Source: Pseudodesulfovibrio nedwellii (GTDB taxonomy: Bacteria > Desulfobacterota > Desulfovibrionia > Desulfovibrionales > Desulfovibrionaceae). Taken from it: DNA of 64,000 nucleotides. Within the stretch, counting starts at the first letter, position 1, and each line of letters begins with the position of its first letter. Positions 15,876 to 40,258 of this stretch are shown here, in pieces. The notes below the pieces were generated by a model. That model did not search any database and was not told the DNA's origin. It saw nothing but the letters and a program-made list of their open reading frames with translations. The DNA lies in the NCBI RefSeq assembly GCF_027923765.1, contig NZ_AP026709.1, positions 3,213,501 to 3,277,500 of the forward strand, in the 5' to 3' direction. The translations under genes were made by a program, and so were the position numbers.

Positions 15876-17564
15876 TCATTTTTTCCAGTACGGGTGACTT
15901 ATATCTTCAAAAGCTGACATGGCCGCGATGGACCCTTCGCCGATGGCCGTGACGATTTGTTGCAGGCCTCCCGTCAGGTCTCCGGCGGCATAGACACGTG
16001 GCAGATTGGTGCGCATATCAGATTCGACTTTGACGAAGCCATCTTCCTTGAGTTTCACGCCAAGCGATTTTGCCAGCCCGGTAGAGGCTTCCTGACCGAT
16101 AGCGACGAATGCACCGTCCACCGGCATGTCCGTCACGGCGCGGGTCATGAGGTTCCGAATCTTGAGGTTGTTTACCCGTCGCCCGTCACCTTCGATTTCT
16201 TCAACAATGGTATTCCAGAGAATGGGAATTTGTTCGTGGTTTACGGAATCCTGAAGAGGTTTCTGTGCACGGAAGGTGTCGCCTCGATGGATGATGCTGA
16301 CGTTGACCCCGAGGTTTTTGAGATGCAGGGCATCGGTCAAGGCTGTGTTGCCGCCTCCGATGATGGCCACTGACTTCCCTTTGTAGAGATACCCGTCACA
16401 GGAAGCGCAATAATTGATGCCGCGACCGAAATACGTGTCCTCACCTACAGCACCGAGTTTGCGGTATGTCGCGCCGGTCGTCAGAATGAGGGCCTTGGCG
16501 GAATAGACACCTCGACTGGTCGTTACGATGATGGTTTCGCCTTCTTTCATATTACCCATTTGAATGGCGTCGACGCTTTCTCCTTCATGTACAGGGAGAT
16601 ATTCGCGAGCATGTTCGCTCATGATGTCCATGAGTTGTTTACCGGGAACAGAAACAAATCCCGGATAATTTTCGACAATCGGTGTCAATGCCACCTGACC
16701 GCCGACGATATGCTTTTCCAGTACTACGGCCTTGAGACCTGCCCGGACCGCGTAGATGCCTGCGGTCAATCCCGCGGGGCCTGCCCCAACGATGACGAGG
16801 TCGACTTCGCCGGGTTCAATGGTTCCGTAGCCGGAGGGCGTTTTGCCTTCTTCCATGCCGGGAAGACTGCCTTCGGCGAGCATGTCCTCTGCGGATTTGA
16901 GATAAACCATTTCCACAACAAATCGTTCTTCGGGTAAGAGCCCCATGACATCATGGGCTCCCTCATTGAAGATGGTATGTGGAACAGAACCGACGCCGTA
17001 GCGTTCCGTTAATTCAGGGTTTTCACTCATTTCGATACATTCGGCCTTGATTTGGCCGGGTTTTGCGATTGCGCATTTGATAGCGGACATGACCTGTCCG
17101 GGACAGTATGGTCAGGTTGGCGCGACAAAAACTTGAACCAATCGTTCGTCTTTGAGTTGTTCAAGGAGGGGAGTGGACATGTCAGACAGTCCGCTCTTGC
17201 CCAGCGAGACGAGCATGATGGCAGTGATGAAGGATTTTCCTTCTTCACCGATAGGCGCACCCAGAAAGCGGATATGGTAATCGTCGGGATTGACGCACAA
17301 GGTGGGCGAGGCTGTCACTTCCAGTTCTTTGGCGCGGTCGGAATCAATTTCATAACCGGTCACCAATATCTTGTCGGTCAGTCGAGCAAGATCCCAGCAG
17401 AATTTGGCTGTGTAGTCAGAGAATTCATCATTGACACCGGGCTGGGTGAAAACTTCCAGTGACACAGAGCCTTGGAGCGTCTTGAAGGTTTCGGTCAATT
17501 GCTTGCGAACATCGGCAGGCAGGAACCAGTCGTCCTTTGTATCGTCTTTGAACAGGGGAGCCAT
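15876..17564 (-). CDS. AhpF-like selenoprotein: tandem Trx folds fused to thioredoxin reductase, Sec at UGA codon 151
   Basis: 562 aa if the TGA at 17112-17114 is read as selenocysteine. Residues 1-140 are a first Trx-like fold without a CxxC pair. The second fold has FVAPT-U-PYCPGQ, so the expected CPYC motif of AhpF/PDO-type domains becomes UPYC. Beyond it the frame stays open for 411 codons: FAD-binding IVGAGPAGLTAGIYA, the reductase dithiol INYCASCDGY, NAD-binding AIIGGGNTALTDALHL and terminal VYAAGDLTGGLQQI. This is the AhpF layout. A hairpin with an AGGUCAU loop follows the UGA. The likely job is NAD(P)H-dependent disulfide or peroxide reduction in the cytoplasm. A gene finder would split it into two pieces (17112-17564 and 15876-17090). 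A GAGGTG site precedes the ATG at 17564. Confidence 0.88.
17084..17100 (-). promoter_or_regulatory. bSECIS hairpin of the AhpF-like selenoprotein
   Basis: Within the coding RNA, CGGAC-AGGUCAU-GUCCG forms a 5-bp stem with a 7-nt loop whose first base lies 20 nt from the U of the UGA. The loop begins AGGUC, nearly the AGGUCU loop of E. coli fdhF, where the G-U bases contact SelB. The distance and G position fit the published bacterial SECIS consensus. Confidence 0.8.
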
Positions 17565-17661
17565 GGATCACCTCGTATTGTCTGTGCTGGATGAAATTCC
17601 TCTATTTATAAAAATATGTGAGCTGGGTGCACGAGTCAAGTTGGTATAAGAATCGGATTTG

Positions 17662-30010: not shown

Positions 30011-30104
30011 TGGCGGAAGCGTACAGGAGTCGAACCTGCCCAGGACATCACTGCCCAACATTGGTTTTGAAGACCAAGCGCCACACCGGTGACGAAACGC
30101 TTCC
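30011..30104 (-). tRNA. selC: tRNA-Sec (anticodon TCA), selC
   Basis: 94 nt including an encoded CCA (30011-30013). The acceptor arm is 8 bp (GGAAGCGT with ACGCTTCC) as in tRNA-Sec, the anticodon arm TTGGT-CTTCAAA-ACCAA shows anticodon UCA at 30068-30070, there is a long variable arm, and the T arm is GCAGG-TTCGACT-CCTGT. These are the diagnostic traits of the UGA-reading selenocysteine tRNA. It lies upstream of the VOC terminator on the opposite strand; selA and selB are not in the window. Confidence 0.95.
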
Positions 30105-34466: not shown

Positions 34467-34544
34467 TGGCGTCCCCAAGGGGATTTGAACCCCTGTTAAC
34501 GGCGTGAAAGGCCGCCGTCCTGGACCAGGCTAGACGATGGGGAC
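34467..34544 (-). tRNA. tRNA-Glu (TTC), copy 1
   Basis: 78 nt with encoded CCA. Acceptor GTCCCCA/TGGGGAC, anticodon arm GCGGC-CTTTCAC-GCCGT (anticodon TTC), T arm AGGGG-TTCAAAT-CCCCT. Identical in sequence to the gene at 40181-40258. Confidence 0.95.
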
Positions 34545-40180: not shown

Positions 40181-40258
40181 TGGCGTCCCCAAGGGGATTT
40201 GAACCCCTGTTAACGGCGTGAAAGGCCGCCGTCCTGGACCAGGCTAGACGATGGGGAC
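40181..40258 (-). tRNA. tRNA-Glu (TTC), copy 2
   Basis: 78 nt, identical to the copy at 34467-34544. It is 11 bp from tRNA-Gln and probably on the same transcript, with the terminator just beyond. Confidence 0.95.

Follow-up and report, generated by a model that had tools for sequence, protein, structure and literature searches.

A very probable selenoprotein in Pseudodesulfovibrio nedwellii: an AhpF-like PDO-thioredoxin reductase fusion with an in-frame UGA in its redox motif

The window, by which we mean the whole stretch of 64,000 nucleotides analysed here, carries on its minus strand a reading frame for a fusion of a PDO-type double thioredoxin fold with a thioredoxin reductase (PDO-TrxR), interrupted once by a TGA, as well as selC, the gene for tRNA-Sec. 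The features concerned are the following.

17571-17574, minus strand: GAGG 5' of the start ATG, putatively Shine-Dalgarno-like from a reading of the sequence
17562-17564, minus strand: ATG, start of the PDO-TrxR frame
15876-17564, minus strand: predicted full PDO-TrxR selenoprotein frame, 562 residues with selenocysteine (Sec) at 151; the frame is continuous in Cys relatives
16905-17522, minus strand: double thioredoxin-fold domain (PDO / AhpF N-terminal), residues ~15-220, from TIGR02187, Thioredoxin_3, PDB PDO chains and the structural model
17112-17114, minus strand: UGA taken as the Sec codon, U151, from the aligned codon in 74 usable loci
17103-17114, minus strand: U-P-Y-C redox motif (U151, C154); residues 151-155 are invariant in 43 aligned proteins, with Sec written as C
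17084-17100, minus strand: putative bSECIS hairpin CGGACA-GGUCA-UGUCCG, with a 6-bp stem, fitting the published model
15897-16805, minus strand: FAD/NAD(P) thioredoxin reductase domain, residues ~254-556, from Pyr_redox_2, TIGR01292 and a fold search
16398-16409, minus strand: CASC redox motif of the reductase domain, C386-C389; both Cys are present in 43/43 aligned proteins
15876-15878, minus strand: TGA, final stop of the PDO-TrxR frame
30011-30104, minus strand: selC, tRNA-Sec, from ARAGORN and Rfam RF01852 (78.7 bits)

The window also holds two tRNA-Glu(ttc) genes (34467-34544 and 40181-40258), which are of equal length and equal Rfam score and lie ~5.7 kb apart.

The sole interruption of the 562-residue frame is the TGA at 17112-17114, which occupies codon 151 and hence the first position of a [U/C]PYCP sequence; the [U/C]PYC motif sits in the second thioredoxin fold of a PDO-thioredoxin reductase fusion with the architecture of AhpF. 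An earlier note on this DNA had described a TGA that splits an otherwise continuous AhpF-type frame at the first Cys of CPYC, with 411 in-frame codons to its 3' side, and both points are confirmed here. Its statement that no start codon lies near the break is wrong: an in-frame ATG (17088-17090) occurs eight codons past the TGA, and it is from this ATG that plain ORF calling begins the second of the two ORFs, of 150 and 404 residues, into which it splits the gene.

Profile searches place the product near three equivalog families and within the cut-offs of none. TIGR03140 (AhpF) aligns with residues 15-555 at 277.9 bits, under its equivalog cut-off of 502.9; TIGR02187 (PDO) and TIGR01292 (TrxR) likewise remain under theirs, with 164.4 bits against 185 and 317 bits against 343.45, respectively. 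The TIGR01292 cut-off is exceeded by L079, a Sec form from another family (347.8). Of the earlier designation as an AhpF-type peroxiredoxin/thioredoxin reductase, the AhpF-like architecture therefore stands, while membership of the AhpF, PDO or TrxR equivalog is not borne out by the scores; the name 'peroxiredoxin reductase' is one that we infer for the window protein. The Thioredoxin_3 match spans residues 143-220, and solved PDO chains such as 1a8l match the N-terminal part. An AlphaFold2 model built from 43 aligned proteins reached a mean pLDDT of 87.1 and a pTM of 0.53, the latter leaving the arrangement of the domains open, and its three best PDB matches are all AhpF (4o5q, 4xvg and 1hyu, with 551-557 columns aligned). 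Residue U151 lies in the model between strand 141-147 and helix 154-167, where thioredoxins, as we understand it, usually have their active site. C386, C389, C154 and U/C151 are invariant in the 43 aligned proteins. The first thioredoxin fold, by comparison, lacks a CxxC in 41 of the 43 rows, the window's included, and the two rows that have one (L084 and L090) are more classically AhpF-like. From residue 426 the reductase domain reads HRGDTFRA, a sequence that resembles the NADPH motif of TrxR, with Gly in place of the second Arg, which is present in 34 of the 43 rows.

Termination at the UGA followed by a restart at the ATG of 17088-17090, so as to yield two separate proteins, would make use of that in-frame codon and of an AGG shortly upstream of it. 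However, such a break would cut through a thioredoxin fold at the active-site helix 154-167 of the model; the Met is not conserved, being Leu in L012, Gly in L046 and Val in L047; and Cys relatives read continuously through the site. We consider two separate proteins very improbable.

Codon 151 was compared across relatives at several taxonomic depths. Among 98 relative genomes searched, 55 contained a match, and the codon, read in all 55, was TGA in nine, among them that of the window, and a Cys codon (TGC or TGT) in 46. Twenty further loci picked from order and phylum searches contributed seven TGA, 12 Cys and one unusable case, L083, whose frame is broken at the site and which was excluded from the count. 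The codon is consequently TGA in 16 and TGC/TGT in 58 of 74 usable loci, with no TAA, TAG or other codon, which supports the earlier proposal of Sec at the first Cys of CPYC in a PDO/AhpF-type homologue. One of the 16 TGA loci, L078, belongs to the window's species. As the TGA recurs in this second assembly (G314) and in 14 other genomes, of which one has it in a standalone PDO, it is no assembly slip. No match to the PDO-TrxR gene was found in 43 of the 98 relatives, four of which are of the same genus, and the gene is therefore dispensable.

The order search gave matches in 142 of 348 genomes and 12 rows with TGA; the codon was read in 61 of the 142 (55 + 6), and the others were judged from the fact that no stop was reported for them. 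At phylum level, TIGR02187 matched 256 of 395 genomes. Among the matches listed, full-length TGA fusions outside the order came from three genomes of one genus (G401, G364 and G464), a standalone TGA form came from G630, and the remaining TGA rows comprised G517, whose frame is broken, and weak matches of short length. When the DNA of the 395 phylum genomes was scanned for UPYC-like sites, 22 sites turned up in 20 genomes, four of the sites being genes already read; the reversed control had hits in five. In the standalone PDO (L082, G630:C46) the first fold has CQYC and the second UPYC, and no hairpin of the common type follows the UGA; with the same UPYC this protein scores 262.7 bits for TIGR02187, above the cut-off. 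In L083 (G517:C879), a PDO-TrxR homologue, the frame break adjoins the active site. L076, L077 and L095 (G340, G345 and G341) form a divergent group within the same family, with two Sec forms and one Cys form and a longer linker between PDO and reductase.

The part of the gene past the UGA also bears on its integrity. Against the TGA relatives L010, L011, L012 and L018, dN was 0.017, 0.054, 0.123 and 0.112 and dS 0.66, 1.46, 1.35 and 1.85, respectively, with the nearest relative providing the pair 0.017 and 0.66; dS exceeds 1, and is thus near saturation, in three of the four comparisons. The resulting dN/dS lies at ~0.03-0.09 against the four relatives, and from the low dN relative to dS we conclude that the post-UGA part is under purifying selection. 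A nonsense mutation in a decaying gene, leaving a C-terminal pseudogene or a protein that ends at 150 residues, would account for the TGA as the regular stop codon which it otherwise is, and for the 150- and 404-residue ORFs. It is at odds, however, with purifying selection downstream, with the occurrence of TGA, never TAA or TAG, exactly at a Cys codon in 16 of 74 usable loci, and with the full Sec machinery of the genome (below). There is, in our estimation, only a very slight chance that the gene is decaying; judged from sequence, it is very probably a selenoprotein gene rather than a broken one, encoding a full-length Sec enzyme.

A fdhF-like SECIS hairpin at a proper distance from the UGA had also been proposed for this locus, and our results support it. 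The hairpin CGGACA-GGUCA-UGUCCG starts 11 nt after the UGA, with its loop 17 nt after it, and has an energy of -7.9 kcal/mol when folded alone. In the available text of a 2026 review, the bSECIS model prescribes a loop of 3-9 nt, a stem of 4-16 bp and a G in the first two loop positions, together with a spacing of 16-37 nt and an MFE of -7.5 or below (PMC13188914). With 6 bp, the loop GGUCA, a spacing of 17 and -7.9 kcal/mol, the window hairpin satisfies every constraint published there.

The hairpin follows the TGA across relatives. By a gapless measure (L078 and L083 left out), at least five effective pairs were found in 11 of 15 TGA loci vs three of 58 Cys loci (Fisher p 1e-7, Mann-Whitney p 1e-5, kinship being ignored in both the counts and the tests). 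A looser scan found model-like hairpins in 13 of 15 TGA and 23 of 58 Cys loci. Stems of differing sequence occur in other genera (L046, L077 and L079-L081): at the same place L046 has CCTGGCCA/TGGCCAGG, L077 has CCGGGGC/GCCCTGG, and L079 (CCGCAGC/GCTGCGG) vs L080 (CCACAGC/GCTGTGG) amounts to a paired change. Three TGA loci, L015, L020 and L082, showed no such hairpin by the gapless measure, and L047 scored 4.5; in the looser scan L015 and L082 were again without one and L020 had a different one. The window stem was equalled by 77 of 2000 synonymous shuffles, the corresponding figures elsewhere ranging from 2/2000 (L046) to 299/2000 (L077), with nothing in L015, L020 and L082. A 50-nt fold, in which the loop is paired with UGACC, does not exceed shuffled sequences in stability (z -0.45). 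For the window gene alone, the hairpin is thus modest evidence. The three other TGA genes inspected in this genome likewise form a hairpin past the UGA, its loop being GGA in selD, GGUC in L098 and AGUU in L099.

The means to insert Sec are present. The genome has selA, selB and selD above cut-offs in profile searches, whereas their absence had been named as grounds for abandoning the proposal, and selC lies in the window as the earlier note had reported. Its selD carries an in-frame TGA, as do two AhpC/TSA proteins. Among the 98 relatives selA is above cut-off in 88, all nine TGA genomes included, and with the seven others it is found in 16 of 16 TGA genomes. The residue at 151 is deduced from the sequence, and this leaves room for a UGA read through mainly as another residue by near-cognate suppression, with no Sec involved. 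Yet all 74 usable loci have either a Cys codon or TGA at this position, the hairpin accompanies the TGA, and every TGA genome has selA; we find such suppression scarcely credible. On the comparative evidence, SelB and tRNA-Sec would instead insert Sec at codon 151, the hairpin at 17084-17100 acting as SECIS. Taken jointly, one 562-residue PDO-TrxR selenoprotein with Sec at UGA151, a hairpin serving as SECIS and an AhpF-like electron path is the best explanation, and we hold it to be highly probable.

Sec and Cys forms appear to have exchanged at this gene more than once. The neighbours, which we take to be genes for CstA, LytS, LytTR, a GGDEF protein, a kinase, NrfA, NrfH and an MCP, were compared in 14 loci: L112 and L113 (both Sec) and L120 (Cys) retain the gene order on both flanks; L114, L115, L121 and L123 retain it on one flank, as does L119 through the GGDEF gene only; and L116, L117, L118, L122, L124 and L125 do not retain it. 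Since L120, a Cys form, shares the window's neighbour genes on both sides, Sec and Cys forms are orthologous there. A functional link with the neighbour genes was rejected, as order kept on both sides in three of 14 loci marks orthology among close species. A quick tree of 70 rows (L078, L082, L083, L085 and L092 left out) demands at least eight changes of the Sec label, at least five of them forced by well supported branches, with gain and loss indistinguishable by count. Three Cys loci, L014, L017 and L095, show a strong hairpin. On the tree L017 has L018, a Sec form, as its sister (support 99); L095 clusters with two other Sec forms, L076 and L077 (support 100); and L014 shares an unresolved group with the clade of the window. 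In L014 and L017 stem and loop are identical to the window's. From these sequences, the hairpin in L014 and L017 is likely a remnant SECIS, retained when Sec gave way to Cys. Remnant SECIS-like structures have been described, in the available text of one study, for some Cys homologues that were probably once selenoproteins (PMC1794560). Repeated switching between Sec and sulfur at one gene looks new. It supplies natural pairs that differ at the catalytic residue, such as the Sec form L018 and its Cys sister L017, still with the hairpin, and these make the long-standing question of Sec retention or loss directly testable.

By analogy with AhpF, from which we take the order NAD(P)H, FAD, two dithiols and partner, electrons would pass from NAD(P)H, more likely NADPH, to FAD, then to the C386-C389 dithiol and on to the U151-C154 pair. 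This pair would then reduce a separate partner, which could be PrxU, a peroxiredoxin of AhpC type or some other disulfide protein; a path through U151-C154 to a peroxiredoxin or thioredoxin-like partner is likely on this analogy. Candidates in the same genome are L097, of AhpC type (TIGR03137, 215.4 bits, the cut-off of 272 not being reached), the selenoperoxiredoxin L098 (NF040737, PrxU, 386.8 bits, above the cut-off of 270) and the thioredoxins. In this genome no AhpC/TSA gene lies within ~87 kb of the PDO-TrxR gene, the nearest match being ~87 kb off. PrxU itself (L098:1492-2100; G000:C1:1921484-1922092) has its TGA at DFTFVU, and TPSGW where L097 has CPARW. A further AhpC/TSA protein, L099 (G000:C1:773258-773632), has an in-frame TGA in a U-P-F-C motif.

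TGA-bearing PrxU relatives of L098 occur in 37 of the 98 genomes. Scoring G025, a genome with a C-terminal fragment of the gene, as lacking PrxU, we found the TGA-bearing gene in 7/9 Sec-form vs 16/46 Cys-form genomes (Fisher p 0.026). Allowing for the tree, this reduces to three independent pairs on well supported branches, too few for significance in a sign test, and PrxU is also present in 14 of the 43 genomes that lack the PDO-TrxR gene. The link was set aside on both grounds, and an association of PDO-TrxR with PrxU is a hint at most.

Compared with AhpF (4o5q, 1hyu), the window protein has the same domain order, a double thioredoxin fold whose first fold is inactive, a full-length fold match and a CxxC-type motif in both redox centres. 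It differs in having Sec for Cys, in its score (277.9 vs 502.9 bits) and in the lack of an adjoining ahpC; its HRGDTFRA is, we assume, of NADPH type, whereas AhpF is of NADH type. With TrxB it shares its C-terminal 300 residues with the CASC centre, but it adds an N-terminal relay of its own, thioredoxin-like and with Sec; the same genome has a separate TrxR-like gene, L105, with 42% identity.

Animal thioredoxin reductase, a flavin disulfide reductase of another class, likewise has a Sec relay in the same chain, with the Sec in a C-terminal tail, and any likeness of the window protein to it would be convergent. It is possible, though rather doubtful, that the window protein is a bacterial counterpart by convergence: an FAD reductase with a built-in Sec relay, broad substrates and a locus prone to Sec/Cys swaps. 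If so, its substrates would be peroxiredoxins including PrxU, and perhaps selenium compounds or peroxide, and the repeated swaps would allow the gain from selenium to be measured between natural orthologues.

The nearest known selenoprotein is a Sec 'AhpF N-terminal domain homolog', a TIGR02187 PDO with UxxC, which the available text of three sources presents as an already catalogued family (PMC1794560, PMC9312934, PMC13188914). The window protein belongs with it in domain family and in the UxxC placement of Sec, and differs in that its first fold has no CxxC and that it scores 164.4 bits against the cut-off of 185. The available text of the 2026 review counts 119 selenoprotein families or subfamilies, and its table, in the same portion, lists no flavoprotein of the AhpF or thioredoxin reductase type that bears Sec in a fused thioredoxin domain (PMC13188914). 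None of the titles returned by our literature searches concerned the whole PDO-TrxR fusion in a Sec form. The fusion of the Sec domain to a flavin reductase looks new, although some catalogued members of the domain family may be such fusions. The protein is very probably a real selenoprotein of a mostly expected kind, in a full-length architecture that we have not found described. Whereas the catalogued entry is named for the domain, the window protein is that domain fused to an FAD reductase, and it extends the catalogued Sec domain to a complete flavoenzyme.
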